A stretch of DNA of 61,823 nucleotides from Ruminococcus sp. (GTDB taxonomy: Bacteria > Bacillota_A > Clostridia > Oscillospirales > Ruminococcaceae), in assembly GCF_016283395.1 (NCBI RefSeq), contig NZ_JAEEMU010000051.1, positions 1 through 61,823 on the forward strand. Direction: 5' to 3'. This document shows, piece after piece, positions 2,476 through 35,216 of the stretch. A program made the translations under genes and the position numbers. Under the pieces are notes generated by a model. It saw only the letters and a list, made by a program, of their open reading frames with translations. It ran no database searches and was not told the DNA's origin. The first letter of the stretch is position 1; each line of letters opens with the position of its first letter.

Positions 2476-2504
2476 TTGACTTTTGAGTGAAACAGCGTTA
2501 TAAT
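2476..2504 (+). promoter_or_regulatory. Sigma-A promoter of the alaS operon
   Basis: TTGACT at 2476-2481, a 17-nt spacer and a perfect TATAAT at 2499-2504, just upstream of the T-box leader. Confidence 0.8.
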
Positions 2505-2514
2505 AATAAAGTAT

Positions 2515-2730: not shown

Positions 2731-2826
2731 TAATTCGGAAATACGGATTAAACTGTAACAGTGTCCTTGATGCGTGATGTAATTACGCATTATGAATTAT
2801 GAATTAATTAAAAGGAGATCATTTTT

Positions 2827-5454: not shown

Positions 5455-5511
5455 TAAATATATCGGAGCGGTATCTCCGCTCCGTACATCTTGATACAAA
5501 GGAGAATTATT

Positions 5512-5865: not shown

Positions 5866-5877
5866 GGAGAAGATGTT

Positions 5878-6417
5878 ATGGCAAATACTTATAAAATGAC
5901 TATTGCAGGTCTTGAAAGAGAGCTGCCTATATGTCCTCTCAACGACAAGATAGATATTGCGGCTTTTGTAATGTTCTCTGATGTTGAGCTTACTATGGCT
6001 GTTGCAAGTGAGCTTCTTAAAAGGTCTCCGTATTTCGATGTTATCCTTACTGCTGAGTCTAAGGGTATCCCGCTTGCTTACGAAATGTCAAGAAGCAGCG
6101 GCAAACCTTATGTGGTTGCAAGAAAGTCCGTAAAGCTTTACATGACAGATCCTATTGCTGTTACTGTAAAGTCTATAACTACTGCTGATGAGCAGACACT
6201 TTATCTCTCTCAGGAAAAAGCTGAGATGCTCAAGGACAAGAAGGTGCTCATCGTTGATGACGTTATAAGCACAGGCGAGTCTCTTACTGCTCTTGAAAAG
6301 CTTGCAACTGAGGCAGGCGGAGATATCACAGGTAAGTCGGCTGTTCTCGCTGAGGGTGATGCTGCTGACAGAAAGGATATCATCTTCCTTGAGAAATTAC
6401 CTCTCTTCTTTAAATAA
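5878..6417 (+). CDS. Adenine-type phosphoribosyltransferase
   Basis: A 179-aa cytoplasmic type I phosphoribosyltransferase. The PRPP-binding loop is seen as VLIVDDVISTGESL (acidic pair DD followed by TG), and an upstream stretch ESKGIPLAYEMSRSSGKPYV matches adenine/xanthine PRTases (Apt-like). Such enzymes salvage a purine base to its nucleotide using PRPP. The length fits Apt (170-185 aa), but the exact base is not determinable here. It starts 12 nt after hinT, with the Shine-Dalgarno AAGGAGAAG overlapping the hinT stop, and ends 11 nt before the next gene, so it is clearly part of the operon. Confidence 0.85.
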   Translation: MANTYKMTIAGLERELPICPLNDKIDIAAFVMFSDVELTMAVASELLKRSPYFDVILTAESKGIPLAYEMSRSSGKPYVVARKSVKLYMTDPIAVTVKSITTADEQTLYLSQEKAEMLKDKKVLIVDDVISTGESLTALEKLATEAGGDITGKSAVLAEGDAADRKDIIFLEKLPLFFK

Positions 6418-6428
6418 GGAATAAAATT

Positions 6429-14823: not shown

Positions 14824-15696
14824 ATGAAAAAATTATTATCAATTATGTCATCAGCAGTTATTGCTGCCGGTATGGTCTCAGCATTTACTGTAAATGCAGC
14901 TGATGAGGCACCATCTGTTTATTTTACTGTAGATGATAAGGCTGACGGTGTTGAAACACTTAAATTTGGCGGTATCTTTGTAAATACAAAGGAAAATACT
15001 TCGGCTATCCCATGTGCTGTATACATAAAGGACGAAAGCAAGAAGGCAGGTCAGATCTTCGTTAAGGCTATTGCTGACAAGTCACTCAAGCTTTCTGACC
15101 TTACAGGTCCTAATGAGCTTTACAAGGGTGCTCCTTATAAGGGATTTGAGACTGATGACAGCATGAACCTCAATACATTTGAGGATCTTAATATGATCGC
15201 TGTAAACTACTCAAAGGTTTCTTCTGAAAAGCCTATGGAGCTTAACGGTGAGAAGTCCGATTCATATCCGCTTGCTTGCTTCAAGGCTAAGTTCGATGAT
15301 AATGCTCAGGGCGGCTTATATAACCTCAAGGTTTACAGCAGCGGTGCTTACTTCAGCGGTATCATTCTCCGTAACGGTGACGGTACATTCAAGGAGTATG
15401 ATCCTATCGATAGCAGCAAGCCGCTTGCTATAATGGCTTCTGACAGAAAGCTCGGCGATATCAATAACGACAGCAAGTGGGACTCTGTTGACGTTTCAGG
15501 TATCATGAAGGAGTATTCAAGAGTTTCATCAGGTAAGGACGGTATCTTTGACGGTAATCAGAGAGCTGCTGCTGATATCAACGGTGACGGTCTTGTTGAC
15601 TCTGTTGATGCAAGTAACCTCCTTGCTTACTATGCTTACCTTTCTTCAGGTGACGGTACTTCTTCACTCAATGATTTCGTAAAGAACAGAAAGTGA
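14824..15696 (+). CDS. Secreted dockerin protein, possible short cohesin-like/dockerin adaptor
   Basis: A 290-aa exported protein. The signal peptide is MKKLLSIMSSAVIAAGMVSA... with likely cleavage after VNA (about residue 25). Residues about 28-195 form one beta-rich domain of unknown identity; the stretch GGLYNLKVYSSGAYFSG recalls the closing strands of cohesin-type modules, but the match is weak. A type I dockerin starts at about residue 210 with two Ca loops (DINNDSKWDSVD and DINGDGLVDSVD) and ends near 275. If the first domain is a cohesin, this would be an adaptor of the ScaC kind; otherwise it is a small cellulosome-attached accessory protein. It begins after AAAGGAG and is followed by a strong terminator. 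Confidence 0.8.
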   Translation: MKKLLSIMSSAVIAAGMVSAFTVNAADEAPSVYFTVDDKADGVETLKFGGIFVNTKENTSAIPCAVYIKDESKKAGQIFVKAIADKSLKLSDLTGPNELYKGAPYKGFETDDSMNLNTFEDLNMIAVNYSKVSSEKPMELNGEKSDSYPLACFKAKFDDNAQGGLYNLKVYSSGAYFSGIILRNGDGTFKEYDPIDSSKPLAIMASDRKLGDINNDSKWDSVDVSGIMKEYSRVSSGKDGIFDGNQRAAADINGDGLVDSVDASNLLAYYAYLSSGDGTSSLNDFVKNRK

Positions 15697-17689: not shown

Positions 17690-18823
17690 ATGGGAATGCT
17701 GGATTTTCTTAAAGTTAGCAAAGGTATAGCAAATAATATGAATTATTCAAGCTCTGTGCTGGGTACAGGTATGTATTCAGGTCATGTCGGTTCATCAAGA
17801 AAGCCCGACGGACGCGGAGTATTTATTAACGACCTTGACATTGAATATGACGGCGAGTGGAAAGACGGCAAGCTTTGCGGTTTCGGAAGAAAATATGCAA
17901 AGGGTTATTATGATATCGGACAGGGCGAGGGTGACGAGGCAAGTAAGTCCCTTGTTTATGCAGGAGATTTCGTGGACGACAGATTTCACGGCAATGGTAA
18001 GCAGTACTGGCAGACAGGCAAGCTCCAATATGACGGGGAATGGATGTATGGCTGGAAATGTGGTGAGGGTACTGAGTTCTATGAGAACGGAAAGGCGAAG
18101 TACGTTGGCTCATGGAGCAGAAGCAGATATCACGGCAGAGGTGTTTTTACATACAAAAATGGCGATGTCATCGAGGGTGAATGGATAGAAGGTCTGCTTG
18201 AGGGCGAAGCTCTTTTCAAGACTCGTGAGGACAACTGCGTTTATAAGCGTAATTATAAAGAGGGAAAGGTCATCACAGAGGAGCTTATCAGCGGTACACC
18301 AAAGCCTTCTCCAGATGCTAAAAGAGTTATCGAATTCGATAACGGCAGATATGAGGGCGAAGTCGGCTTTACGGGAAAAATGCACGGAAAAGGTGTCTTT
18401 ACTTATACAAACGGCAATGTTTACGAAGGCTGCTTCAATGAAGGCGTAAAGCAGGGAAAAGGGGTTTTCAGATTTGCTGACGGCGATGTGTACGAAGGCG
18501 AATACGAAAACGATATGAGAAACGGTGTCGGCGTTTACAGCTACAAAAACGGAAACAAGTATGACGGTGAATGGTGCGATAACGTAAAAAGCGGTCATGG
18601 CGTTTTCTGTTACAGTAACGGAGACAGGTTTGAAGGACGTTTTGAAAACAGCCTCAAACATGGAAAGGGTACTTTTTACTTTAAAAACGGCGATGTTTTT
18701 GAAGGCGAGTGGGAAAGTGACCTGCGCCACGGAAAAGGTATACTTACCTGTGCTGACGGTGTGAAAAAAATACAGAAATGGGACAGGGACAAGCTCGTGA
18801 GTGAGTCGCCTATATTCCAGTAA
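17690..18823 (+). CDS. MORN-repeat protein
   Basis: A 377-aa cytoplasmic protein made almost wholly of MORN repeats (about 23 residues each, core YxGEWxxGxxHGxGxxxxxxG). At least ten are visible, for example YDGEWKDGKLCGFGRK, YEGEYENDMRNGVGVY and FEGEWESDLRHGKGIL. A short insert (about residues 180-215) separates an N-terminal set from a more regular C-terminal set. There is no signal peptide or membrane helix. MORN repeats form extended beta-hairpin rods that bind membranes or proteins; no enzymatic domain is fused here. It has its own promoter and terminator. Role unknown. Confidence 0.9.
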   Translation: MGMLDFLKVSKGIANNMNYSSSVLGTGMYSGHVGSSRKPDGRGVFINDLDIEYDGEWKDGKLCGFGRKYAKGYYDIGQGEGDEASKSLVYAGDFVDDRFHGNGKQYWQTGKLQYDGEWMYGWKCGEGTEFYENGKAKYVGSWSRSRYHGRGVFTYKNGDVIEGEWIEGLLEGEALFKTREDNCVYKRNYKEGKVITEELISGTPKPSPDAKRVIEFDNGRYEGEVGFTGKMHGKGVFTYTNGNVYEGCFNEGVKQGKGVFRFADGDVYEGEYENDMRNGVGVYSYKNGNKYDGEWCDNVKSGHGVFCYSNGDRFEGRFENSLKHGKGTFYFKNGDVFEGEWESDLRHGKGILTCADGVKKIQKWDRDKLVSESPIFQ

Positions 18824-18866: not shown

Positions 18867-20093
18867 TTATTTTTTAAAAAGTTCGATCTTTGTGAAGTCT
18901 GTAAGATCAGGCTCGATATGCTCGACAGGGATATCCACCTGAAGATCTGTCGTTTTTAAATAATCAATAACTGTTCCGTTGCTGCTGACTGTATATTCGA
19001 TAAGTATTCCTGTATAAATATCAACAGCGAGAGTAAAATCATTGCCTTTATCGTTAATTCCAGATAATTCGGCTACTGTTCTGCCGATACGTTCTGATAT
19101 ATTATTTATTTGCCAGTTTTCAAAACGCATTAGCCAAGGTAAGGCTATTTGATCGGGCATGAGTACGTTAAATTCAAATCCCATGAACGCATTACATATA
19201 TATGTTGAAAAGCTGTAATCAGGAGGAGATACGTCAATATATCGATAGTTATCTTCAGTAAGTTTTATCTCATATTGCCAATCATTTGGAATTACTGTGT
19301 AATTATTACCGTTATAGATTTTATCTATTACTTTTTCACTGCTTATAAATTTTTCCGAAATAATATCAGAATAATTGGAATGTTTATTATAGATTTCCCG
19401 CTTATTGAAATCATCCTGAAAATCTACTGATGTATAATGTGAGAGGTCATTGGAATAAGGAAAATTTATAGTTCCTTTAGCGGTATCATAGTAAAGATAG
19501 CTGTTGAGCATCATGTGGTAGATATAGCTTTTTGCTTCAAGAGAATTGATATCATAGCCGTCACTTTGCAGAAGCTCCGCGTAATGCTTTGTATCAACTC
19601 TGTATTTGTGTCTTTCGTTCCAAGGGATAGTAATACTGTGCTCAGCGGCAAGCTCTTTTGCTTCGTCATGTGTTTCGGCATAATGCGGAGTTTCATGTAG
19701 CTGCAATTCTATAAAATTTGTTTCAGTGACGGTATTCTCCTCCGATATCTCAGTAACTTCAGCTTCTGTAGCTTCTTCCGCCTGGGCAATAGTTGATTCT
19801 TCTGTTATCTGCTGTGCAGAAGTGGTGTCGTTAAAGTTGTCAGCAGGCTTTGCTGTGCGGTTCTTAATTATTAATGCTCCGCCTGTGACTGCACCTCCTA
19901 CGAGAACAAGTGCAGAAGCTGCTGCAAGAAGCTTTCGCCATACAGGACTGCGATAGGCTTCTACGCCTTGTACAAGAACTACGGCGTCTGGATTTTCAGC
20001 TTTCTCTTTGACAACAGTACTTATATCTGCGGCTTCTTCGATGAGTTCGGGGCGTATGCCGTTAATTGCCTTATCAAGCATCTCGGTCGTCAT
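18867..20093 (-). CDS. Single-pass membrane protein, putative anti-sigma/sensor partner of ECF sigma (cassette 1)
   Basis: A 408-aa protein whose ATG overlaps the stop of the ECF sigma gene by 4 nt, which implies coupled translation and a functional pair. The cytoplasmic N-terminus (about 1-52) has no HxxxCxxC zinc anti-sigma motif. One membrane helix follows (about 54-76: LLAAASALVLVGGAVTGGAL), then a Thr/Glu-rich linker to about 125 and an outer domain of about 280 residues rich in Tyr, Asp and Asn. The segment VQGVEAYRSPVWRKLLAAA is closely similar to VSGVEVYKKKWQRTALVAA in the partner of cassette 2, so the two belong to one family. The anti-sigma role is inferred from gene order and topology. 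The outer domain is not recognised. Confidence 0.75.
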   Translation of the reverse strand: MTTEMLDKAINGIRPELIEEAADISTVVKEKAENPDAVVLVQGVEAYRSPVWRKLLAAASALVLVGGAVTGGALIIKNRTAKPADNFNDTTSAQQITEESTIAQAEEATEAEVTEISEENTVTETNFIELQLHETPHYAETHDEAKELAAEHSITIPWNERHKYRVDTKHYAELLQSDGYDINSLEAKSYIYHMMLNSYLYYDTAKGTINFPYSNDLSHYTSVDFQDDFNKREIYNKHSNYSDIISEKFISSEKVIDKIYNGNNYTVIPNDWQYEIKLTEDNYRYIDVSPPDYSFSTYICNAFMGFEFNVLMPDQIALPWLMRFENWQINNISERIGRTVAELSGINDKGNDFTLAVDIYTGILIEYTVSSNGTVIDYLKTTDLQVDIPVEHIEPDLTDFTKIELFKK

Positions 20094-20647
20094 AGCTCAA
20101 AACCTTCTTTCTCTAAATACTTTTTTAGTCGCTTTCTCATGCGAAAAAGAATTGAACCTACTGTTTTGGCATTTAGCTGAAATGACTCAGCGATTGCTTC
20201 TATGCTGTCATAATACCAGTATCGTCTGATGAATATTATACGATTTTGCTTATCCTCACTCATAAGGAAAGCGTTTATGGAATTGCTGAGTTCTGACATG
20301 ATACGTGCATCTTCTGGAGTTTGCTTATCGGATACTATGTCGGAAAGCTCCTCATATGACAGGCAGCCGTCACTCTGACGCTTGTTTGCAGTATTATAGC
20401 GGTATTTGGACAGTGCGAGCCTTTTGGTTATCTGGCATAAATAGGCAGAAAAGTGCATAGGACGATCGGGCGGGATAGAATTCCAGGCTTTCATAAATGT
20501 GTCGTTTACACATTCTTCCGAATCTTCCTTTTGTTTCAGTATGTTTTCTGCAATACGGTAACAGAGCTTACCGTACTTTTTCTCGGTCTCGGATATAGCA
20601 CGTTCATCTCTGTTCCGGTAGAGTTCAATAATAGAGGTATCGTCCAT
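20090..20647 (-). CDS. ECF-type RNA polymerase sigma factor (cassette 1)
   Basis: A 185-aa sigma-70 family ECF factor with sigma2 (LCYRIAENILKQKEDSEECVNDTFMKAWNSIP, about residues 27-60) and sigma4 (QNRIIFIRRYWYYDSIEAIAESF...NAKTVGSILFRMRKRLKKYL, about 130-180). The start is taken as the ATG at 20647, 5 nt after AAAGGAGGG; the ATG at 20674 lacks a ribosome site. A predicted autoregulated ECF promoter lies 33 nt upstream. It is divergent from, and very similar to, the sigma factor at 20871 (both begin MDDxSIIELxRxRDExAI), so the two are likely duplicates. Confidence 0.92.
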   Translation of the reverse strand: MDDTSIIELYRNRDERAISETEKKYGKLCYRIAENILKQKEDSEECVNDTFMKAWNSIPPDRPMHFSAYLCQITKRLALSKYRYNTANKRQSDGCLSYEELSDIVSDKQTPEDARIMSELSNSINAFLMSEDKQNRIIFIRRYWYYDSIEAIAESFQLNAKTVGSILFRMRKRLKKYLEKEGFEL

Positions 20648-20680
20648 ATGATCCCTCCTTTCGAGGTCCCTCATTATATT

Positions 20681-20708
20681 AGACGCAAAAAAACAGAAAA
20701 CATTGCAC
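20681..20708 (-). promoter_or_regulatory. Predicted ECF promoter of the cassette 1 sigma gene
   Basis: Minus strand: GTGCAATG (20708-20701), 15-nt T-rich spacer, CGTCT (20685-20681). Same 8-15-5 geometry as the other ECF promoters in the region; spacer resembles that at 24313. Confidence 0.6.
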
Positions 20709-20798
20709 CTCTGCGAAAAAAAATATCAATGATCTCATTCAGTACTTATAATTTAGTACAGAGCGTTTATAAGGATACGCATAAATATTTCTTTGAAA

Positions 20799-20826
20799 GT
20801 GAAATATCAGCCGCAATAATTCAACT
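20799..20826 (+). promoter_or_regulatory. Predicted ECF promoter of the cassette 2 sigma gene
   Basis: GTGAAATA 20799-20806, 15 nt, CAACT 20822-20826 followed by ATATA. 44 nt upstream of the sigma start codon. The weakest of the six matches. Confidence 0.5.
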
Positions 20827-20870
20827 ATATAGGTAAGAGGACCTCATGCCTCATGAAAGGAGGCTCAGCC

Positions 20871-21425
20871 ATGGATGATAATTCGATAATAGAATTATTC
20901 CGAAAAAGAGATGAGACAGCAATCGGTGAATTGCAGCGAAAATACCATAAGCTCTGCTTTTATATCGCAGGTAATATTCTCTCTCATCGTCAGGACATAG
21001 AGGAATGTGTGAATTCGGCATATTACGAAGTCTGGAGCAATATACCGCCTGATGAGCCGAATGACCTTAAAACATATCTGTGCCATACCGTCAAGAACAA
21101 GGCTCTGGACAAGCTGAAATACAATTCCGCAGAAAAACGGAACAGTAAATTTGCTGTTTCGCTGGAAGAACTTTCCGAATGTATCCCAGATTATCGAGAG
21201 GATATTGGCGAGGAAAAAGCTCTTGCCGAGGCTATAAGCCGCTTTATCAGGACACAGGACGAGCTGCACAGAAAAATATTCGTAAGGCGTTACTGGTACG
21301 GTGACAGTCTTGCTAAAATCGCTGAATACTACGATATAAAGGAGCGCACAGCCGCAACTTATCTTTTTCGGATGAGAAAAAAGCTAAAAGCTTATTTAAA
21401 GAAAGAAGGTTACGATCATGAATAA
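20871..21425 (+). CDS. ECF-type RNA polymerase sigma factor (cassette 2)
   Basis: A 184-aa ECF sigma factor. Region 2 is LCFYIAGNILSHRQDIEECVNSAYYEVWSNIP, with the core-binding helix and the -10 recognition part; region 4 is the C-terminal helix-turn-helix RRYWYGDSLAKIAEYYDIKERTAATYLFRMRKKLK. The ATG at 20871 is preceded by AAAGGAGGC; an upstream ATG at 20853 overlaps the ribosome site and is rejected. It is divergent from the homologous cassette 1 sigma gene, with 223 bp between them, and overlaps the following membrane protein gene by 8 nt. Confidence 0.92.
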   Translation: MDDNSIIELFRKRDETAIGELQRKYHKLCFYIAGNILSHRQDIEECVNSAYYEVWSNIPPDEPNDLKTYLCHTVKNKALDKLKYNSAEKRNSKFAVSLEELSECIPDYREDIGEEKALAEAISRFIRTQDELHRKIFVRRYWYGDSLAKIAEYYDIKERTAATYLFRMRKKLKAYLKKEGYDHE

Positions 21426-22380
21426 GCTGAAATTATTTAAAGTCATTGACCTTATTGACGACGATCTTATAAAAGAGGCTGAGATAAAATCAAAAGATAA
21501 ATCGTCATCGGAGAATGAAAGAGAAGAAAACATCATTGTTTCGGGCGTTGAGGTATATAAGAAGAAATGGCAGAGAACTGCCCTTGTCGCAGCTGCTTTT
21601 CTGTTGGTGGTAGGTCTCAGCGCAGGAGGTGTACTTATGTTCAGAAATCGTCCGCCTATGCTTGATGATCCAGCTCTGCCGTCGGATATATCGGCGACTG
21701 ACTCGACTTCGCCATTTGAACGTGTGACCGACGGTGAGTCATCGACTACAAATACAAAGAAAAACGAAAAAGCAACAAAAGAAAGCTCAGATATAACCGT
21801 TACTGCTGCTGTGAAAGATGAAAACAAACCAGCAGTAACTACTGCCCTTGATCCGATGTACGCAGAAATAAACCTGATCTCTCAACCACAAAGCGATAAC
21901 CCCACACAAACACAGGAGACAGGTACAGAAGACTTCATCAATCATGCAAAAGAGTTTCCTGTGGTAACTACGCCCGACGGTACAGAACTGCCTATTGCTA
22001 CAAAGTCTGATAATGTTGAGGACTTTATTAACCATGCGCAGGATTTTCCTGTAGTAACTTCTCCTGACGGCAGCCAAAAACCTATCGCAACAAAGCCTAT
22101 AGTCGATGATCCTGATGGCTTTGCAAACTTTGATATATTTGAAAGTCTTGCAAGTCTGCGTTACTCGCCTGATACCTGTGACGGTCTTCCCGAATATGTG
22201 CTGCTTGCTCCTGACGGAACATGGTATTATATTAACCTGAGTTCCGGCTGGATATGGCGAAAAACGCCAGATCACCAGTGGACTCAGCCGCCCGAAGAGG
22301 CATGGCTTACAAAAACTCAGCTGTCTTATCTCAGACAGCACGGCGAAGAAATAGGTATGCGTCTTGACATCTTTGACTGA
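21418..22380 (+). CDS. Single-pass membrane protein with internal 30-residue duplication, putative anti-sigma/sensor (cassette 2)
   Basis: A 320-aa protein coupled to the upstream ECF sigma gene by an 8-nt overlap. The cytoplasmic part (1-55) is charged and lacks a zinc anti-sigma motif; the membrane helix is about 58-78 (ALVAAAFLLVVGLSAGGVLMF). The outer part begins with a Ser/Thr-rich linker and contains two copies of a 30-residue unit (DFINHAxxFPVVTxPDGxxxPIATK), encoded at 21928-22017 and 22018-22107 with an exact 90-nt period. The C-terminal ~80 residues are Trp/Tyr-rich (PDGTWYYINLSSGWIWRKTPD) and may be the sensing domain. It shares the VxGVExY...W helix-flanking segment with the cassette 1 partner. 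Function inferred from position. Confidence 0.75.
   Translation: MNKLKLFKVIDLIDDDLIKEAEIKSKDKSSSENEREENIIVSGVEVYKKKWQRTALVAAAFLLVVGLSAGGVLMFRNRPPMLDDPALPSDISATDSTSPFERVTDGESSTTNTKKNEKATKESSDITVTAAVKDENKPAVTTALDPMYAEINLISQPQSDNPTQTQETGTEDFINHAKEFPVVTTPDGTELPIATKSDNVEDFINHAQDFPVVTSPDGSQKPIATKPIVDDPDGFANFDIFESLASLRYSPDTCDGLPEYVLLAPDGTWYYINLSSGWIWRKTPDHQWTQPPEEAWLTKTQLSYLRQHGEEIGMRLDIFD
21928..22107 (+). repeat. 90-nt in-frame tandem duplication in the cassette 2 membrane protein gene
   Basis: Two adjacent 90-nt units encode EDFINHAKEFPVVTTPDG... and EDFINHAQDFPVVTSPDG..., with silent and conservative differences, so the duplication is not recent. Confidence 0.85.
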
Positions 22381-22402
22381 TAACATCAATAAACATAAGA
22401 GA

Positions 22403-22434
22403 AAGCCGTATTCATTGCGAATACGGCTTTTATC
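22403..22434. terminator. Terminator between convergent cassette 2 and dockerin gene
   Basis: AAAGCCGTATTC - ATTGC - GAATACGGCTTTTAT. Works on the plus strand and, less well, on the minus strand. Confidence 0.85.
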
Positions 22435-22449
22435 ATTTTGATATTAGTT

Positions 22450-24159
22450 TCAGCTCTCTGCTGGGGCACTATACTTCGCAATAAGCTCCTGTGCTTTTTC
22501 TTCACTGATGTAGAATGTAGTTCCGCGTTCTACCATATTGGTATGAACTGCACCATTCGGATATACCCTGATACCAAAGCCGTATCTGCCTAAGAACGGT
22601 ATATCACAGCCTATTTCAAGTTCACAGTAGTTCTCGGCTGTGCGGTCTATCTGAGAGATGTTGCCAAGATAATCATCATGGCTCGATGAAGCAGCAATAT
22701 CTCTGTCTCCGAAGAGCATATTATAGATATAATCCTGGTCAGCTGTATACTTTTCGTATTTGAAAGCAGGCTTATATACGTGACAGTAAACGTGGTTGAT
22801 GCTCAAAGTGTTTTCAAGATCAAAGTCATCAATGATCTGACCGACTGTCTGTGGCTCATACCACATATTGCGGTAAACATGGTAATTGTTGCTTCCGCTG
22901 TACTGTACGGCTACTGCTAACTCTGTAGAAATATCGTTCAGTGCGAATACCTTTCCTGTGCTGCCGTTCTTTTCATGGTCAAGGACTTCATATTCGCCCA
23001 TTTCTTCGCCTATTGCAGAAAGTCCGAGAGTTGCGCCACAGTTTATGTATTCCGTCTCATTTACCTTTACTGTGAAGTTGTTGTCTTCTTCTGTAAAGTC
23101 TACGTAATCGTAGTTGATAAGGGTGATATCATCGTCCTTCTGTGGGATAGGCACACTGCCGAGACCGAGAAGGCTCATCTGTATCTCTCTTGCGTCGTTG
23201 TTTGTGAGTCCGTTGCCGTCAGTGTCGCCGTTTACCTGTCCCTGTGCGGTTATGCCGCCGTCTGCGGAGATACCGTATTTATCGGGATTTGCCAGCGACT
23301 GCATTATCATAATGGAGTCGGAGAGATCAACATAGCCGTCAATATTGGCATCGCCCATAGTACCGTCAATAATAACAGGTTCGTTGCAGTAATACATCTC
23401 AGGATTAAGGAGCGCAAGCTCGGTCATTCCCCACATGAATTCCAATTTGTCGCCGTTACCCTGAATACTCTTCACGGTCTCATAAAGAGTATTGTCTTTG
23501 CTACGGTAAAGGTCATTTCTTCCATTATATGTAAAAAATAGCTTTCCCTCTACATCGCTCTTTTCGGCTGTGAAGTCGGGATATTTGTCTGTAAATTCAC
23601 CAGCCGTCATATCACCGCTGTAGTATACGCCGCCTAAACCTACGTAATTTGCAGTATCCTCATAGAGTTTGTAATGCATATTTATGGCAGTTACTTCGGG
23701 ACAAGCCTTTAAAAGCTCGAGAGTATAGTCATAGGCTTCTCTTGATACAGCACTGATTATCTCATATTCCTTGCCGTTCTTGCGGAAAGTAGGCATTTTT
23801 AGGTTCTCGGATTCAACAGCTGCCTTGATATCATCATATGGGAGCACCGTTCCTTCTTCCACTTTTATAGCTGTAACAACAGATTCTATATTAATAATGT
23901 GGAACTTGTTGTTTTCGTCAAGTGTAACAAGAGAGCGGTTGAATCTCCAGTCGGGAGTTGCTTTATCCTTGCCGCCGCTCAGCCATACGTAATTTCCTGA
24001 GATGTCCTGAACAGCTTCATCAAAGGTCATACCCTTGTAACTGAATGATTTTGCAGCTGTTTCAACAAGATTGGGGGAGTCAGCATTTGCAGGAAGTGCG
24101 GAAGCTCCGCCGAATACCATAGCCGCAGCTGCTATAATTGACATTATCTTCTTTTTCAT
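22450..24159 (-). CDS. Secreted protein with internal dockerin module (predicted target of cassette 3 sigma)
   Basis: A 569-aa exported protein; signal peptide MKKKIMSIIAAAAMVFGGASALPANA. The N-terminal domain (about 30-265) is not recognised. A type I dockerin lies in the middle, about residues 268-335, with both Ca-binding loops (GDANIDGYVDLSDS and GDTDGNGLTNND), and a second unrecognised domain (about 340-569) follows, ending in FYISEEKAQELIAKYSAP. Dockerins are usually terminal, so the internal position is unusual. The gene starts after AGGAGG. Its promoter mirrors that of the ECF sigma gene at 24401, with the same -35 (GTGAGACA), -10 and spacer length, so it is likely controlled by that sigma. 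No glycosidase or peptidase motif was seen. Confidence 0.82.
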   Translation of the reverse strand: MKKKIMSIIAAAAMVFGGASALPANADSPNLVETAAKSFSYKGMTFDEAVQDISGNYVWLSGGKDKATPDWRFNRSLVTLDENNKFHIINIESVVTAIKVEEGTVLPYDDIKAAVESENLKMPTFRKNGKEYEIISAVSREAYDYTLELLKACPEVTAINMHYKLYEDTANYVGLGGVYYSGDMTAGEFTDKYPDFTAEKSDVEGKLFFTYNGRNDLYRSKDNTLYETVKSIQGNGDKLEFMWGMTELALLNPEMYYCNEPVIIDGTMGDANIDGYVDLSDSIMIMQSLANPDKYGISADGGITAQGQVNGDTDGNGLTNNDAREIQMSLLGLGSVPIPQKDDDITLINYDYVDFTEEDNNFTVKVNETEYINCGATLGLSAIGEEMGEYEVLDHEKNGSTGKVFALNDISTELAVAVQYSGSNNYHVYRNMWYEPQTVGQIIDDFDLENTLSINHVYCHVYKPAFKYEKYTADQDYIYNMLFGDRDIAASSSHDDYLGNISQIDRTAENYCELEIGCDIPFLGRYGFGIRVYPNGAVHTNMVERGTTFYISEEKAQELIAKYSAPAES

Positions 24160-24212
24160 AATAAGACCTCCTTAAATAAAATTATAAGGCGTGATTTTTG
24201 TTTTCACTAATA

Positions 24213-24240
24213 AGTCGTAAAAATCTGCGTTTTGTCTCAC
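24213..24240 (-). promoter_or_regulatory. Predicted ECF promoter of the internal-dockerin gene
   Basis: Minus strand: GTGAGACA (24240-24233), 15 nt, CGACT (24217-24213) followed by TATT. Identical -35 and -10 cores to the divergent promoter at 24305. Confidence 0.8.
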
Positions 24241-24304
24241 CCTTTTTCCAAAAAAATTCAGAAAATATACGTTGAAAAATTTTTTCGGAAAATTTATAAT
24301 TTAG

Positions 24305-24332
24305 GTGAGACATTTTCTCTTTTTTTACGACT
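24305..24332 (+). promoter_or_regulatory. Predicted autoregulated ECF promoter of cassette 3
   Basis: GTGAGACA 24305-24312, 15 nt T-rich spacer, CGACT 24328-24332 followed by TATATA. With the promoter at 24213-24240 it forms a mirror-image pair across a 64-bp centre. Confidence 0.8.
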
Positions 24333-24400
24333 TATATATGAAGAGACATATCACTAAACCAAAACGGGCACAGAAAATGCGCCTGCGAAAGGAGTTTAAT

Positions 24401-24955
24401 ATGGATAACGGTGCAAGTAGCTACCGCCGTTTCCTTGATGGTGATAAAAATGCTCTTATTGATATAATAGAGAACTACCGCCGCGGACTGGTTCTGTTTA
24501 TCAACAGCATTACAGGCGATTTCTGCCTTGCTGAGGAAATTGCGGAGGAGACTTTTCTGAAGCTTTATGTGGACAAACCGAAATTCTCGGGGAAGTCCTC
24601 GTTCAGATCATGGCTTTATTCTATAGGAAGGAATACTGCGATCGACCATATCAGAAAAGCCTCAAAGCTTGATGAAGTGCCTGTTGATGACTTTTATGAG
24701 GTGGCGGACAGGGAGGATATAGAGCAGGATTATATCAAAAATGAGGACAAAAAACATCTCCTCAGAGCATTGGAAAAGCTGAACGATGATTACAGACAGG
24801 TACTGTATCTTATATATTTCGAGAATTTCAGCAACACTGAAACGGCTAAGATAATGGGCAGATCGGAGAGACAAATAAGAAATCTTCTCTATCGTTCAAA
24901 GGAGTCTTTACGGAATATCTTAGAAAAGGAGGGCTTCAGATATGAGGGAATATGA
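24401..24955 (+). CDS. ECF-type RNA polymerase sigma factor (cassette 3)
   Basis: A 184-aa ECF sigma factor. Sigma2 spans about residues 20-85 (FCLAEEIAEETFLKLYVDKPKF, SFRSWLYSIGRNTAIDHIRKAS); sigma4 spans about 120-175 (DDYRQVLYLIYFENFSNTETAKIMGRSERQIRNLLYRSK). The frame is open to 24305, but that would place the start inside its own promoter; the ATG at 24401 has GAAAGGAG upstream. It overlaps the downstream membrane protein by 14 nt. It closely resembles the cassette 4 sigma (both have xxCYRFLxGDKxAIxxII...YRxGL-type N-termini), and both differ from cassettes 1 and 2, so there are two sigma subgroups. Confidence 0.93.
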   Translation: MDNGASSYRRFLDGDKNALIDIIENYRRGLVLFINSITGDFCLAEEIAEETFLKLYVDKPKFSGKSSFRSWLYSIGRNTAIDHIRKASKLDEVPVDDFYEVADREDIEQDYIKNEDKKHLLRALEKLNDDYRQVLYLIYFENFSNTETAKIMGRSERQIRNLLYRSKESLRNILEKEGFRYEGI

Positions 24956-25961
24956 CAAAAAGACCTTGAAGATCGCCGAGCGAATATTTGAAAAGGGCGA
25001 TGAGATATTAGAGCAGCGTCAGAAAAAAGCAGCTAAGATACGTCATATCTCCTATGCAGTATCGGGACTTTGTGCGGTGCTGATAGTCTGCTTCGGCGTA
25101 TGGAAGATACTGCCGTCGATCAATAAGCCTGACAACAGCTTTGATGACTCTAATACTGTTATCACTACGGAAGCTCCGACTGATACTGTAACTACAGCTG
25201 CTCCGACAGCTGAAAATACAACTGTTACAGTGACTGCAAATGTGGTCACTACTATAAAAACTACTGCCAAAAGTACGGAAACAGCGGATGCTGTAACCGC
25301 AAAAACTTCGGTTCAAGGAACAACTGCTGTGAATAATACCGTTACTCGCAGGACTACAGCTAAGACGACTGAAAAAATAACACATACCACGGTATATAGC
25401 AATACTACGGAGGTTCCGATAGCGACTTCAACTACATCATGGTCGGGAGAAGAGATCGCCCATATGATCACATCGGTAGTAAATGAGAGCTTAGAAGATG
25501 GGTGGACTACTGTAAAAACTACGATTGCAGACATACCTGTAGGGCCTGTTACAACTAAAAAAACTTCCGCTAATTCCACTATAATCTCAACGGTAAGCAC
25601 TCGTGTGACAGAAGAACCTGTTATCAAGCCTGTTACTACTTCGACTTCGGTCATGCCAACCGATATCAATTCATTATTCAAGTTATACCCCGTAAGCGTA
25701 AGCCTTGATAATGTACGATATGATAAGGGTACTGCCGAAAGTAATCCAACAAGCGCAGTAGAAATCAAAATAGGAGATTTTATCCGCAAGGCAAGAGTAA
25801 CGATATATATTACAAATAAAAATAAAATAGTGCAGACAATGGAAGTTTATGAGATAAAAGGAAGAAGTTCCGAACAGGCTGTTGCTGTAAGGCTGAATGA
25901 TACCGATGAATATTTTGAATTCAGAAACTATAATTACAGAAAAGAAGATGACGGTTCATAG
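24942..25961 (+). CDS. Single-pass membrane protein with Thr-rich stalk, putative anti-sigma/sensor (cassette 3)
   Basis: A 339-aa protein coupled to the sigma gene by a 14-nt overlap. The N-terminal ~35 residues are cytoplasmic, highly charged and helical (KKTLKIAERIFEKGDEILEQ), with no zinc motif. One membrane helix follows (about 36-55, AVSGLCAVLIVCFGVW). A long Thr/Ser/Val stalk (about 65-235) would span the cell wall. The last ~90 residues form a domain shared with the cassette 4 partner (IGDFI..., VYEIKG...EQAVAVRLND, NYNYRKED). This topology matches RsgI-like extracellular sensors, but there is no RsgI N-terminal motif or carbohydrate-binding module I can recognise. Anti-sigma role inferred. 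Confidence 0.78.
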   Translation: MREYDKKTLKIAERIFEKGDEILEQRQKKAAKIRHISYAVSGLCAVLIVCFGVWKILPSINKPDNSFDDSNTVITTEAPTDTVTTAAPTAENTTVTVTANVVTTIKTTAKSTETADAVTAKTSVQGTTAVNNTVTRRTTAKTTEKITHTTVYSNTTEVPIATSTTSWSGEEIAHMITSVVNESLEDGWTTVKTTIADIPVGPVTTKKTSANSTIISTVSTRVTEEPVIKPVTTSTSVMPTDINSLFKLYPVSVSLDNVRYDKGTAESNPTSAVEIKIGDFIRKARVTIYITNKNKIVQTMEVYEIKGRSSEQAVAVRLNDTDEYFEFRNYNYRKEDDGS

Positions 25962-25964
25962 AAA

Positions 25965-25997
25965 CGAAAGCCCACTCATTCGAGTGGGCTTTTTGCT
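25965..25997. terminator. Bidirectional terminator between cassettes 3 and 4
   Basis: AAAGCCCACTC - ATTCG - GAGTGGGCTTTTT. Perfect stem; serves both convergent genes. Confidence 0.92.
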
Positions 25998-25999
25998 GT

Positions 26000-26935
26000 T
26001 CAGTTATCGTTTTTCTGATAGTTCGGATCGGTGAACAGGTAGTATCCTTCGGTAAAGCTGTATTCGTTTACCAGTCTTAAAGCAACGGCTTCTTCCATAT
26101 CCACATCTTTTATAGTGTATACACCCATTGATATTATTTGCCTTGTTCCGTCAGGGTGTATCATTTTTAATGATACCAAACTGATAAAGTCGCCTATCCT
26201 TTCGTTTTCTATAAGGGTGTTATGCTTTTCGTAGTCAACGTAAGTACCGTTCTTCTTTATTTCGATTGTGGCAGTTGAAGCAAGGAATATCTCGGTCATA
26301 GTATTCTTATTGGGCGGTGGATCGGTTATTCCTCCGGGTGGTGTTGTAACATCAGTTGTGACAGGTTCTGTGGTGACTACGAAAACTCCTGTTGTCGGCG
26401 ATACAGTCGTTACGTGGACTTTGCCTGTAGTTGATGTCTGGGCAGCAGTCGCAGTTGTTGACACTGGGGGAGAAACTGTCGTTAAAGCAGCTGTGGTTGT
26501 TGTAGCTTTTCTCGTTGTTACAGGAAGTGAAGTTGTTCTGTAAGGAATTGTCGTCCTTATAGGAACTGCCGCAGTAGCTTTTGCAGCAGTTGTTTTTGTC
26601 TCCGCAGCTTTTGTTGAAATAGAAGTTGTTTTTGCGGAAGAGGCTGTCGTTTCCGTCTTAGTTGCTGTCGTCAGTGGGGGAGTAGTCTGTGTGGATGTTA
26701 CTGTAGTTTCAGCTGTTGTCACGGTAGTTATAACTATATTGGTATCATCAAAGTTGTTTTTATTTTCGAGAGAAGGACGGAGTTTCCATACTCCGAAGCA
26801 GACCAGTACAGCGGCACAAAGTCCCGAAGCAGTCAGAGATACCCGTTTGATACGCATTGAACGTATACGCTTGCGTTCAAGAATGGCATCGACTTCCTTA
26901 GTGACTATTTCAGCCATTTCTTTATAGTCCATCAT
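26000..26935 (-). CDS. Single-pass membrane protein with Thr-rich stalk, putative anti-sigma/sensor (cassette 4)
   Basis: A 311-aa homologue of the cassette 3 partner with the same layout: a short charged cytoplasmic part (ITKEVDAILERKRIRSMRIKR-type), a membrane helix (about 31-50, SLTASGLCAAVLVCFGVW, almost the same sequence as in cassette 3), a Thr/Ala/Pro-rich stalk (about 65-215) and a ~95-residue outer domain with ERIGDFISLVSLK, GVYTIKDVDMEEAVALRL and DPNYQKND. The start overlaps the sigma stop by 14 nt, the same overlap as in cassette 3; an in-frame ATG one codon on is equally possible. No zinc-binding anti-sigma motif. Convergent with cassette 3 across a shared terminator, so cassettes 3 and 4 look like an inverted duplication. 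Confidence 0.78.
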   Translation of the reverse strand: MMDYKEMAEIVTKEVDAILERKRIRSMRIKRVSLTASGLCAAVLVCFGVWKLRPSLENKNNFDDTNIVITTVTTAETTVTSTQTTPPLTTATKTETTASSAKTTSISTKAAETKTTAAKATAAVPIRTTIPYRTTSLPVTTRKATTTTAALTTVSPPVSTTATAAQTSTTGKVHVTTVSPTTGVFVVTTEPVTTDVTTPPGGITDPPPNKNTMTEIFLASTATIEIKKNGTYVDYEKHNTLIENERIGDFISLVSLKMIHPDGTRQIISMGVYTIKDVDMEEAVALRLVNEYSFTEGYYLFTDPNYQKNDN

Positions 26936-27476
26936 ACGAATATCCCTCCTTTTCCAGTTGTTTTTTCAATGCGCCTTTGGCACGGTACAGCAGATCGATG
27001 ACCTGCTTTTTAGATTTCTTCATTATCTTTGCCGTTTCATCGTGATCGAAACCTTCTAAGTAAATAAGATACAATACCTGACTGTATTCAGGCTTTAGCC
27101 TGTTTATAGTTCTGCGCAGCCTGATCTTTTCCTCGTCACTAATATAGCTCTGCTCAATGCTTTCTTCACCTGAGATATCAGCTGCTTCTTCAAGTGGGAC
27201 TTCACGGCGTTTTGAACTCTTTCTTATATGATCGAGAGCAGTATGCCTTCCTATGGCATAGAGCCATGTCTTGAAAGCTCCCTCACCCTTGAATTTAGGC
27301 TGTTCGGAAAAAAGCTTGATAAATGTATCTATAGTCAGTTCTTCCGAAGTGTGGATATCACCGACTATACTGAAAAGGTAAAAAATAAGTCCATCTTTGT
27401 AATCGCGGATTATTTCTTCGATCGCTTTTTTATCTCCTGAGAGAAAACGGCTGTAACATTCAGCACCGTTTTTCAT
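26922..27476 (-). CDS. ECF-type RNA polymerase sigma factor (cassette 4)
   Basis: A 184-aa ECF sigma factor, similar along its whole length to that of cassette 3 (MKNGAECYSRFLSGDKKAIEEII; AFKTWLYAIGRHTALDHIRKSS; YSQVLYLIYLEGFDHDETAKIMKKSKKQVIDLLYRAKGALKKQL). Sigma2 is about residues 20-85, sigma4 about 120-175. The region 4 recognition helices differ (SERQIRNLLYRSK against SKKQVIDLLYRAK), in line with the different -35 blocks of their promoters. The ATG follows AAGGGAGAA. The same ECF promoter type lies upstream and is mirrored at the divergent dockerin gene. Confidence 0.93.
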   Translation of the reverse strand: MKNGAECYSRFLSGDKKAIEEIIRDYKDGLIFYLFSIVGDIHTSEELTIDTFIKLFSEQPKFKGEGAFKTWLYAIGRHTALDHIRKSSKRREVPLEEAADISGEESIEQSYISDEEKIRLRRTINRLKPEYSQVLYLIYLEGFDHDETAKIMKKSKKQVIDLLYRAKGALKKQLEKEGYSYDGL

Positions 27477-27538
27477 AGTATTCTCCCTTCAAAAAATGAT
27501 CGTGAAATTCAACTGTGTATACATTTCTTCTATTAATT

Positions 27539-27566
27539 AGTCGTATAAAAAGCTGTCAAAATCGCA
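27539..27566 (-). promoter_or_regulatory. Predicted autoregulated ECF promoter of cassette 4
   Basis: Minus strand: TGCGATTT (27566-27559), 15 nt, CGACT (27543-27539) followed by AATTAAT. Confidence 0.75.
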
Positions 27567-27674
27567 TACCTGTAAAAGGAATTTTGAGATTTGTAATATA
27601 TGTACAATAACAAAGCTGTCGGTATGGTTATTATAACATAATTTTCGCAGCTTGAAAAGTTTTTTTGAAAAAAC

Positions 27675-27702
27675 TGCGATTTGGGATATGAAAGCTGCGA
27701 CT
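27675..27702 (+). promoter_or_regulatory. Predicted ECF promoter of the dockerin gene at 27799
   Basis: TGCGATTT 27675-27682, 15 nt, CGACT 27698-27702 followed by AATTAGT. Same -35 and -10 cores and spacing as the divergent cassette 4 promoter. Confidence 0.75.
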
Positions 27703-27727
27703 AATTAGTGAAAAGGCAAATAAGTAC

Positions 27728-27774
27728 ATCGGATACATTCAAAACATTCTTATCCGATAGCGTAAAATTTTACG
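27728..27774 (+). promoter_or_regulatory. Leader hairpin and palindrome in the 5' UTR of the dockerin gene
   Basis: ATCGGATA (27728-27735) pairs with TATCCGAT (27751-27758) around a 15-nt loop. A perfect 14-nt palindrome CGTAAAATTTTACG (27761-27774) follows, ending 10 nt before the ribosome site AAAGGAGG. Could affect mRNA stability, translation or bind a regulator; function unknown. Confidence 0.5.
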
Positions 27775-27798
27775 ACACTTTTTAAAGGAGGTCTTAGT

Positions 27799-29379
27799 AT
27801 GAAAAAAATGATCAATATTTTGCTGACAGCTTCAATGCTGGCAAGCTGTATAACTGTTCCATTTACTGCTTTTGCAGCTGAACAGCAGACTGTTGCAGTT
27901 CAGACGAGTGAAGCGGAGGAGAACATCAGGATTTCAGAGGAACTGAAAAAAGACATTGATGCAGGACTTGAAAAGATAGACGTAATGATGTGGTGTACAT
28001 TCAAGATCGATTATTCTATAATTATTCCAAGGGTAAACAAAGCCACTGAGGAATATAAAACCACACTGGATGCATCAGTATATTCAGAAGAAGAGATCAA
28101 CGAAATGGTTGGGGCTTATAAAAATGATCTTTCACAGAAGAAGTATGAGGAAGCTTATGCTGCTAAAACAAAAGAAGTCTGCGATTTTATAGGAATTGAC
28201 GTTTCAGAGGCGAACTTTACAGGAACAGCTCTGAGATGCTCATTAACTCCCGAGCAGATATACAAGATAGCAGGTACAGACCGTATCAAGGGAAGTGTCA
28301 TAAAGCAGTCTGAATATGTATCAGCCGAGGAGTTAGGATATACAGCTGTCGATGCTACCGACTCTGATATCACATTCGATGACATCAGAGGAATGTCACT
28401 TGATGAATTCAAGGCTCTGTTTGCCGAAAATGAAATGACAGATGGTATGAAATACAGGTTATGGTCAAAAGATGATATGGCACAAATGAATAAGATCGGA
28501 AGAGTATGGGTTCTTCTTGAAGCTAATCCGTTCCCTGTATCAAATGAAGCTCTTGCAGAAGATTACAAGGTATGCTGGGAAGATGACAAGATCATCGAAG
28601 AAATGGGACTTCCGACAGATATGTTTGCAATAAAACAGAGAGGAATAAAACAGAGAGGAGCTTTAACTGTAGATAAAGGCGAAGGTTACACTAAGTACTG
28701 TGCTTTTGAGATCATACCTATAACAGCTCAGGCGGATAATAGTATGTATGCGGCTTGGAACTATGTTCAGTTCAATGAATATTTTGCAGGCTTCTACTAC
28801 GATTACATAGCTTGTTCTGATCCGCCGAAAGAAAATAATGATACACAGGTAACAACAACTACAACACTTCCTGAAGATGTACCTATAACAACAACTACAA
28901 CAGTCTCTGCTGAAGTACAGGAAGCAATGGATAAGCTGAACAAGTATATTGAGGACAATGGTCTTGATGCAAAGTGCCTGACAAGTGCAGAGTATCCAAG
29001 CTACTATCCGCCTCTCATTATTGAATATGTAGTTGAAAATGTAACGACTGACCAGAAGAAGCAGATGCTGGAATTTGCTGAGCAGAATGGTATCAGCCAT
29101 GAGCTCTTCACCCTCGTACACATTATCAACGGCGAAAAGGTATACTGGGAGTATGCTACTGTTAATGTAAAAGGCGACGCAAACTGTGACGGTGAGCGTG
29201 ATATGTCAGACGTAGTACTTATCATGCAGGCACTTGCAAATCCTAATAAATACGGCGAAAACGGTACAGCAGAGCTTCACCTGACAGCACAGGGCAAGGC
29301 AAATGCTGACATGGACGGCGACGGACTGACAGTGGGCGATGCTCAGGCTATACAGAAGATACTGCTTGAAATAAACTGA
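27799..29379 (+). CDS. Secreted dockerin protein (predicted target of cassette 4 sigma)
   Basis: A 526-aa exported protein. Signal peptide MKKMINILLTASMLASCITVPFTAFA. Residues about 30-345 form an unrecognised region with amphipathic helices (EELKKDIDAGLEKIDVMMW, EEINEMVGAYKNDLSQKKYEEAY). A Thr-rich linker lies at about 350-372, a small domain at about 375-455, and a C-terminal type I dockerin at about 459-526 with loops GDANCDGERDMSD and ADMDGDGLTVGD. A perfect 15-bp tandem repeat (28629-28658) duplicates five residues (IKQRG). The dockerin closely resembles that of the 22450-24159 protein, including the LANPxKYG linker. It is transcribed divergently from the cassette 4 sigma gene and shares its promoter type. 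Confidence 0.82.
   Translation: MKKMINILLTASMLASCITVPFTAFAAEQQTVAVQTSEAEENIRISEELKKDIDAGLEKIDVMMWCTFKIDYSIIIPRVNKATEEYKTTLDASVYSEEEINEMVGAYKNDLSQKKYEEAYAAKTKEVCDFIGIDVSEANFTGTALRCSLTPEQIYKIAGTDRIKGSVIKQSEYVSAEELGYTAVDATDSDITFDDIRGMSLDEFKALFAENEMTDGMKYRLWSKDDMAQMNKIGRVWVLLEANPFPVSNEALAEDYKVCWEDDKIIEEMGLPTDMFAIKQRGIKQRGALTVDKGEGYTKYCAFEIIPITAQADNSMYAAWNYVQFNEYFAGFYYDYIACSDPPKENNDTQVTTTTTLPEDVPITTTTTVSAEVQEAMDKLNKYIEDNGLDAKCLTSAEYPSYYPPLIIEYVVENVTTDQKKQMLEFAEQNGISHELFTLVHIINGEKVYWEYATVNVKGDANCDGERDMSDVVLIMQALANPNKYGENGTAELHLTAQGKANADMDGDGLTVGDAQAIQKILLEIN
28629..28658 (+). repeat. Perfect 15-bp tandem repeat inside the dockerin gene
   Basis: AATAAAACAGAGAGG occurs twice back to back (28629-28643 and 28644-28658) and is in frame. 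A likely recent slippage event. Confidence 0.9.
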
Positions 29380-35182: not shown

Positions 35183-35216
35183 TTTAATACCCTCCAAACA
35201 TAGAAATGTTTATATA

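Follow-up and report, generated by a model that had tools for sequence, protein, structure and literature searches.

Four cassettes of two families

Here we analyze a stretch of DNA of 61,823 nucleotides from Ruminococcus sp. (contig NZ_JAEEMU010000051.1, positions 1 to 61,823; hereafter the window), in which four genes for sigma factors of the extracytoplasmic function (ECF) type are each paired with an overlapping gene for a membrane protein. Two of these pairs, cassettes 3 and 4, stand beside divergent genes for dockerin proteins (d1 and d2), and it is these two cassettes and their relatives that mainly concern us. The features of the region are the following.

18867 to 20093, minus strand: membrane protein of cassette 1 (a1), putative anti-sigma; ORF (open reading frame) with a 4-nucleotide overlap with sigma 1; 30% identity to a2 over 155 amino acids
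20090 to 20674 (likely start 20647), minus strand: ECF sigma 1; TIGR02937 above cut-off
20675 to 20708, minus strand: predicted promoter of sigma 1, GTGCAAT-N15-GCGTCTAATATA; similar site 5' of the orthologue in locus L031
20853 to 21425, plus strand: ECF sigma 2; TIGR02937 above cut-off
21418 to 22380, plus strand: membrane protein of cassette 2 (a2), putative anti-sigma; ORF with an 8-nucleotide overlap with sigma 2
22450 to 24159, minus strand: d1, secreted protein, divergent to sigma 3, whose dockerin is assigned to group 1 by profile and fold
22864 to 23019, minus strand: domain of d1 related to the outer domain of sensors a3 and a4
23149 to 23361, minus strand: dockerin of d1
24210 to 24240, minus strand: predicted promoter of d1, GTGAGACA-N14-ACGACTTAT
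24305 to 24335, plus strand: predicted promoter of sigma 3, GTGAGACA-N14-ACGACTTAT
24401 to 24955, plus strand: ECF sigma 3; start downstream of the predicted promoter
24942 to 25961, plus strand: a3, single-pass sensor and putative anti-sigma with a Thr-rich stalk; transmembrane segment near residue 38, Thr 17%
25722 to 25937, plus strand: outer domain of a3 (residues 261-332)
26000 to 26935, minus strand: a4, single-pass sensor and putative anti-sigma; transmembrane segment near residue 31, Thr 21%
26018 to 26242, minus strand: outer domain of a4 (residues 232-306)
26922 to 27476, minus strand: ECF sigma 4
27534 to 27566, minus strand: predicted promoter of sigma 4, TGCGATT-N15-ACGACTAATTA
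27675 to 27707, plus strand: predicted promoter of d2, TGCGATT-N15-GCGACTAATTA
27799 to 29379, plus strand: d2, secreted dockerin protein divergent to sigma 4, with its dockerin at 29167-29370; match to 5M2S at E 3.6e-19, Foldseek TMt 0.86

All four sigma factors match the family TIGR02937 (sigma70-ECF) above its cut-off and have the size and architecture of ECF proteins (about 180-200 amino acids, with sigma-2 and sigma-4 only); in Pfam, region 2 scores above the cut-off in all four and region 4_2 in sigma 2, 3 and 4, with sigma 1 below it. The initial annotation had described four ECF genes overlapping genes for single-pass, Thr-stalked membrane sensors, falling into the subgroups 1/2 and 3/4. 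The overlaps are present in the ORFs (4 nucleotides at 20090-20093, 8 at 21418-21425, 14 at 24942-24955 and 14 at 26922-26935), and so are the subgroups, with sigma identities of 48% within 1/2 and 50% within 3/4 against 21-27% between the groups. A single strong transmembrane segment is found in a3 and in a4, and one was seen by eye in a1 and a2; the Thr-rich stalk holds for a3 and a4, but relatives have other ectodomains, dockerins included.

Treating all four cassettes as a single system was rejected. Cassettes 1 and 2 are ECF pairs from another, wider-spread family, relatives of sigma 2 being present in 24 of the 40 genomes searched (E ≤ 1e-25), other families of the order included, and in the window sigma 1 and sigma 2 are divergent to each other with no dockerin gene divergent to either. 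The relatives of sigma 3 and 4 form instead a Ruminococcus expansion, present in 97 of 125 genomes of the genus (E ≤ 1e-50), with weaker matches in other families of the order. At most 27 candidates were scored per genome and high copy counts are therefore lower bounds; they reach at least 21 in one genome (G061, 6% contamination), and G001 (R. flavefaciens YAD2003) has 10. The idea of a parallel ECF-dockerin system is supported for cassettes 3 and 4, which have a conserved sigma, sensor and dockerin neighbourhood and common promoters, and finds no support for the order-wide cassettes 1 and 2. Among the loci of relatives analyzed, which include orthologues and form two sets sharing some genomes, those of G001, the nearest genome, resemble the window in gene order. 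One extra dockerin gene lies between the sigma-3 orthologue and d1 in G001, and two in G020, so that the divergent operon comprises two and three dockerin genes, respectively.

In the sigma-3 family (the window counted in), 69 of 70 places have an ORF that overlaps the 3' end of the sigma gene, and 144 of 148 distinct partners have a transmembrane segment, with a median start at residue 36.5. Lysine plus arginine averages 7.7 in the 20 residues ahead of this segment and 1.9 after it, a fall in charge which fits a cytoplasmic N-terminus and an outer C-terminus; from this layout of genes and topology we infer that the N-terminus binds the sigma factor. No Pfam family scored above its cut-off in the four window partners, and the anti-sigma domain RsgI_N (PF12791) gave no match in them at E ≤ 1. 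Over 36 genomes (22 of the genus) RsgI_N matches number at most one per genome, and in three they exceed the cut-off. In a Pfam scan of 99 non-fused sensors at E ≤ 0.001, RsgI_N was absent, as were carbohydrate-binding module (CBM), PA14 and glycoside hydrolase families; the seven families found in all occur in no more than two sensors apiece.

The outer domain of a3 and a4 was found again in d1 (independent E-value 7e-7 among 678 genes), and its only occurrences outside sensors among these genes were d1, the d1 orthologues in L031 and L041, and the broken sensor of L051. A sensor and its own neighbour have therefore a domain in common. For the outer domain of a3, NCBIfam gives NisI_immun_dup at E 0.014, below the cut-off, a weak hint of a NisI-like fold in this domain of a3 and a4 and in part of d1.

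Dockerin genes beside and within the cassettes

Both d1 and d2 have signal-peptide-like starts and dockerins, in agreement with the secreted dockerin proteins proposed at cassettes 3 and 4. Pfam gave no match on the dockerin of d1 and a match below the cut-off on that of d2, and profile search matched d1 to the solved R. flavefaciens group 1 dockerin 5M2S (E 2.5e-27), whose fold it also matches; by sequence and fold these are group 1 type I dockerins. Homologues cover at least half of d1 in 34 of 49 cases. The part of d1 ahead of the dockerin has middling fold matches only; the structure model of d2 is poor (mean predicted local distance difference test, pLDDT, 56), and its Foldseek search returned nothing at E ≤ 0.001 apart from the dockerin. 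As the initial annotation proposed, d1 and d2 may be non-enzymatic, since the Pfam scan recognised no enzyme domain in either, but ten outputs scanned elsewhere include one trypsin-like protein and one with CotH kinase, lamin-tail and Fn3-associated domains. Divergent output genes occupy 6794-10126 of L032 and 6906-10235 of L042, the G001 copy (L032) reading lamin-tail, Fn3-associated, CotH kinase and dockerin, an unusual cellulosome subunit.

The neighbourhood of sigma, sensor and dockerin genes proved to be conserved in related Ruminococcus genomes, as the initial annotation required of a true system, although 58 of the 148 distinct cassettes have no adjacent dockerin gene. Sensors with a fused dockerin account for 27 cassettes, a divergent dockerin gene for 24 and a downstream one for 26, giving 77 of 148 cassettes linked to a dockerin against 25 of 504 background genes. 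These counts rest on a dockerin hidden Markov model (HMM) built here from d1 and d2; in a check of seven proteins, Pfam agreed above the cut-off for five, below it for one, and had no match for one. By genome, the linked cassettes are 9 of 10 in G001, 8 of 9 in G020, 6 of 8 in G009, 4 of 7 in G033, 6 of 11 in G036, 5 of 9 in G011, 3 of 4 in G025, 1 of 2 in G003 and 2 of 2 in the window. Of the partly covered genomes, G008 has 4 of 5 linked (of 10 cassettes) and G007 0 of 3 (of 5, two of them on very short contigs).

Other genes flank the region. A gene for a GH43-GH43_C-ricin lectin-dockerin protein lies near the cassettes (32459-35197) and a 290-amino-acid dockerin gene on the other flank (14824-15696), and the promoter scan gave no promoter of the sigma 3/4 family above 12 bits at either of them. 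Positions 29923-32298 encode a peptidase of the clostripain family (C11), Gly-rich in its N-terminal part and neighbouring a tRNA-Leu/tRNA-Pro pair, and 17690-18823, adjoining cassette 1, a protein with nine MORN repeat matches.

In the fused sensors the dockerin is part of the ORF of the membrane protein. Two of them match solved group 1 dockerins (E 4.8e-14 and 9e-13), and their number, 27, is a slight undercount, since one of the 99 sensors taken as non-fused matches Dockerin_1 in Pfam. Of the 27, 23 have, at residues 143-271 between stalk and outer part, an internal Met with a signal-peptide-like segment behind it. A Shine-Dalgarno sequence precedes this Met in 22 of the 23, compared with 12 of 369 other in-frame Met codons (Fisher test, 2e-26, uncorrected for relatedness), and 22 distinct hexapeptides stand before it; because these six residues vary, it is the nucleotide signal and not the peptide that has been kept. 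The combination of Shine-Dalgarno sequence, ATG and a hydrophobic segment above 1.4 was found in 0 of 53 and 0 of 77 sensors without dockerin (two sets sharing some genomes), one of the 53 having a segment of 1.3 without the shape of a signal peptide.

This organization suggests that two products may come from one fused ORF, namely a membrane-bound anti-sigma with a terminal dockerin and a dockerin protein that is secreted and free, and use of the second start is favoured because a signal peptide in mid-chain would be of little use to an exported long form. An alternative is that translation yields nothing but the long, dockerin-bearing sensor and that the internal start is left over from a recent gene fusion. 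L060, which has the unfused arrangement with a stop just ahead of a similar Shine-Dalgarno sequence, shows that fusion or fission occurs, and four of the 27 fused ORFs (L092, L116, L139 and L141) lack the internal start, so that such a history is credible; the Shine-Dalgarno sequences concentrated at the internal signal-peptide Met codons, behind so many different hexapeptides, nonetheless make it the less expected outcome, and we consider it unlikely.

Predicted promoters and the residues that may read them

Sigma 3 and d1 have a common promoter-like element in opposite directions, GTGAGACA-N14-ACGACTTAT, noticed by eye and then recovered by exact search, and sigma 4 and d2 have another, TGCGATT-N15-RCGACTAATTA, the promoters of pair 3 and pair 4 differing from each other. 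Each promoter pattern has two exact matches in the window, against 0.00 and 0.01 expected by chance (up to two mismatches). These predictions bear on two gene starts. The annotated GTG start of sigma 3 (24305) was rejected, being the first base of the predicted -35 element of the 24305-24335 promoter, and the gene is therefore taken to start at the ATG at 24401; the annotated ATG of sigma 1 (20674) was likewise rejected, as it abuts the predicted -10 element of the 20675-20708 promoter, and the start is probably at 20647.

A two-block model of the sigmas' own promoters, trained on sigma upstream regions without any information from the sigma proteins, found a site above 12 bits in 129 of 149 distinct sigma upstreams, compared with 0.7% of shuffles. 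Expectation-maximization training on shuffled upstreams from the same seed yielded 14-28 of 149, against 130 for the real ones, and cross-validation on upstreams less than 60% identical to any training sequence recovered 78 of 96. In a first scan, the dockerin genes with a site above 14 bits ahead of them numbered 15 of 67, compared with 1 of 68 for sensors and 5 of 434 for other genes. A divergent site above 15 bits accompanies the own promoter in 19 of the 129 (0.4-1.2% of shuffles exceed 16 or 14 bits), and in 14 of the 19 its target is a dockerin gene. The remaining five comprise two genes with signal-peptide-like starts (in R. flavefaciens FD-1 and in a metagenome-assembled genome), another sigma gene and two sites without assigned target, one of which, in L051, lies ahead of a dockerin ORF whose start had been placed further upstream. 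Divergent sites were found in 1 of 24 fused-sensor cassettes and 17 of 102 others with an own promoter, from which we claim no difference. Over 13 distinct pairs the divergent and own sites of a cassette differ on average by 1.0 of 13 positions, compared with 4.6 when permuted, and none of 50,000 permutations was as low; an earlier within-cassette permutation, on five distinct pairs only, had given p 0.008.

Two further loci were noted in the course of this work. L095 of R. flavefaciens FD-1 (2182-8546) holds three genes of the sigma 3/4 family within about 6.5 kb, of which the one at 7962 and its divergent dockerin gene have in common GTGAGACA and the -10 element TCGTCTAATAAG, with spacers of 15 and 14. 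In L034 (1657-3338; G001 C11) a radical SAM gene lies directly before a 233-amino-acid gene matching the dockerin HMM built here and no Pfam family, and upstream stands a strong predicted promoter of the same sigma type, GTGAGAGT-N14-CCGTCTAATAAG (24.7 bits).

Exact patterns, which miss variants, were then matched against six whole genomes. The sigma-3 pattern has nine sites (three in G001, two each in G020, G036 and G025, none in G007 and G011), and the reversed control none. Four of the nine are own promoters of sigma genes and five lie ahead of dockerin genes; three of these five belong to the divergent neighbours in G001, G036 and G025, and two had not been known beforehand, one on another contig of G001 and its counterpart in G020. 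The distant target gene carries a dockerin in both genomes (E 5e-29 and 2e-30; in Pfam above the cut-off in L184 and below it in L185). In G001 the sigma-3 pattern thus occurs at the sigma gene itself, at the divergent dockerin gene and at the distant one, and the sigma-4 pattern occurs twice; over the six genomes the latter has four sites, all at cassette 4 of G001 and G020. The divergent site of G020 was missed by the sigma-3 pattern because its best-scoring spacing there is 15. Three further sigma patterns, two from cassettes with fused sensors, each have a single site in G001 and another in G020, in both cases at the operon of that sigma, and no site in G036. Of 19 sites over all patterns, 12 are own promoters, as expected since the patterns were derived from those sigmas or their orthologues, seven lie ahead of dockerin genes and none elsewhere. 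In viral contigs the sigma-3 pattern had no match and no fused sensor was confirmed.

If these sites were truly recognised by their sigma factors, the bases of the promoter should covary with the residues that contact them, and this is what we observed among 99 non-redundant pairs of sigma and promoter drawn from the 129. The strongest covariation joins residues 160, 161 and 165 to -35 positions 7, 4 and 3, respectively. Next in strength are residues 82 and 85 (-10 positions 2 and 3), then residue 156, again for -35 position 7, and residue 66 for -10 position 5; we take these residues to fall in the recognition helix of region 4.2, in region 2.4 and in the specificity loop for the -10 element. 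The tables of residue to base are nearly deterministic. At residue 161, an N is matched by A in 64 of 65 pairs and a D by C in all 15; at residue 165, an R is matched by G in 66 of 70, an N by T in 17 of 18 and a Q by A in all 6; at residue 160, an R or a K is matched by C in all 28 and an E by G in 40 of 47; and where residue 82 is D, -10 position 3 is G in all 75. Sigma 3 (R160, N161) and sigma 4 (I160, D161) differ in step with their own -35 elements. The five leading residues for the -35 element (160, 161, 165, 156 and 167) all lie within 150-170, where 60 shuffles placed at most two, and the maximum z was 10.7 against at most 7.8 in the shuffles; for the -10 element, 18 of the top 20 pairs are in region 2. 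Because the promoter model contained no information on the sigma proteins, the concentration of the strongest signals in presumed DNA-reading residues was not built in.

Could ordinary envelope-stress pairs of ECF sigma and anti-sigma simply lie by chance beside dockerin genes, in genomes where about 5% of genes encode dockerins? Such genes are indeed common, making up 25 of the 504 genes of our background and, according to excerpts of PMC4081043, encoding 180-223 proteins in three R. flavefaciens strains; the 58 cassettes lacking a dockerin neighbour fit this explanation, and so does the hint in a3 and d1 of a NisI-like fold, a lantibiotic-immunity domain. At 5% per single background gene, however, about 10% of cassettes with two neighbours would be linked, and 77 of 148 are; neither the sharing of cassette-specific promoters, unmatched by any permutation, nor the recurrence of the sigma-3 promoter at a distant dockerin gene in both G001 and G020 is accounted for, and we regard this explanation as quite improbable. 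That the likeness of the divergent promoters reflects a duplicated or palindromic intergenic segment devoid of regulatory meaning, as their location within one intergenic region might suggest, is very improbable given that the spacers differ between the two directions, that a third sigma-3 site stands on another contig of G001, and that the promoter bases covary with the presumed DNA-reading residues.

A proposed set of switches and its relation to known systems

Taking these results together, we propose, with a probability of roughly 0.78, that cassettes 3 and 4 belong to a Ruminococcus family of orthogonal ECF/anti-sigma transmembrane switches with small, nearly private dockerin regulons. 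At the sequence level this proposal is founded on the gene pairing, the topology signal, the dockerin group, the cassette-specific promoters, their rarity in related genomes and the covariation; binding of the sigma by the N-terminal head, its release when a signal arrives, the reading of each promoter by one sigma alone and the entry of the dockerin proteins into the cellulosome are inferred. The membrane protein would act as the anti-sigma, its short basic cytoplasmic head holding the ECF sigma while stalk and outer domain sense something outside. On arrival of the signal the sigma would be released and would transcribe its own operon and one or few group 1 dockerin proteins, from promoters that only this sigma reads, and these proteins would then plug into the cohesins of the cellulosome.

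Several observations weigh against this proposal. Besides the 58 cassettes without adjacent dockerin, 13 more that show no link are cut by contig or locus ends, and in G036 five of 11 cassettes have none. Also in G036, the sensor following the sigma-3 orthologue (L051, 7491-8375) has a frameshift that parts its cytoplasmic head from its membrane segment, so that control is not kept there, while sigma, both promoters and dockerin gene of that cassette remain, leaving a sigma that lacks an intact membrane partner. The relatives compared are not independent of one another, and permutations and shuffles ignore phylogeny. In the -35 list the top 20 pairs include 11 in region 4 (which holds 61 of 177 columns) and seven in region 2, the list being less focused further down, and the -10 element alone is uninformative in G001 (five sites against nine for the reversed control). 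Finally, no glycoside hydrolase was found among the ten outputs scanned; the link to fibre breakdown is therefore indirect, and the switches may tune accessory or protective subunits instead of cellulases.

A bolder extension, which we hold to be doubtful, starts from the fused ORFs. The full-length product would be a membrane anti-sigma with a dockerin at its end, and the product of the internal start a free secreted subunit bearing the same dockerin. Sensor and product would then vie for one cohesin, and through its occupancy the cell would sense how far its own cellulosome has been assembled. In such a scenario the orthogonal ECF switches of ruminococci would number up to about 20, each having a nearly one-to-one address of residue to base and a private subunit or two; a single ORF would serve as both sensor and subunit in about one sixth of them (23 of 148), where the cell would read occupancy and not sugar.

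The regulation of cellulosomes in ruminococci is described as not understood in excerpts of PMC4081043. Our results suggest an answer to how fibre-digesting gut relatives of R. flavefaciens adjust their cellulose-digesting machine, and supply candidate regulators, predicted promoters and a short target list for the 180-223 dockerin proteins of that species. The table of residue to base predicts the promoter of a new sigma and offers a natural set of orthogonal sigmas, and, with their dockerin and internal start, some of the putative anti-sigma ORFs might allow the cell to sense cellulosome assembly directly. In the portions of the open-licence PMC literature covered, we found no description of an ECF sigma and sensor-dockerin arrangement or of internal initiation in an anti-sigma; in the FD-1 genome paper (PMC2721979) the main text has the word 'sigma' twice, both times in supplier names.

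The closest resemblance is to SigI/RsgI of Clostridium thermocellum, Acetivibrio and Pseudobacteroides, which in the passages cited are likewise several paralogous, autoregulated pairs of sigma and single-pass anti-sigma tied to cellulosome genes (PMC3413522, PMC6056542, PMC11557425), autoregulation and the anti-sigma role being predicted in our case; the RsgI suite is there said to be used only by Acetivibrio-type cellulosomes (PMC11557425). Unlike the window sigmas, with their sigma-2 and sigma-4, SigI is described in excerpts as having no sigma-4 domain (PMC6056542, PMC4711584), and none of the RsgI sensing modules listed in part of PMC3413522 (CBM3, CBM42, CBM35, PA14 and peptidase) was found in the 99 non-fused sensors (E ≤ 0.001). 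Because sigma-4 is present and RsgI_N absent, the sigma 3/4 system is an analogue and not a member of SigI/RsgI, and its outputs, unlike theirs, seem to be one or few dockerin proteins. An ECF-type factor, sigma24C, is also found in C. thermocellum. The pair sigma24C-Rsi24C resembles our cassettes, with their putative anti-sigmas, in joining a sigma to a membrane anti-sigma with an outer sensing module, and is reported in excerpts to go up on pretreated poplar (PMC3990059), its GH5 module interacting with crystalline cellulose (PMC3526467); it is a single pair with a GH5 sensor, for which the same excerpts describe no private dockerin output or common promoter. As for the dockerins, d1, d2 and two fused sensors match those of R. 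flavefaciens group 1 (5M2S, 5M2O); that of 5M2S comes from a family 9 glycoside hydrolase, while those studied here are carried by proteins without a recognised enzyme domain or by membrane sensors. The logic of the covariation, by which ECF residues in sigma-2 and sigma-4 set the preference at -10 and -35, is reportedly that of Todor et al. 2020. Compared with such ECF covariation studies, the present one concerns a natural set of paralogues, mostly from one genus, with dockerin genes as their targets.

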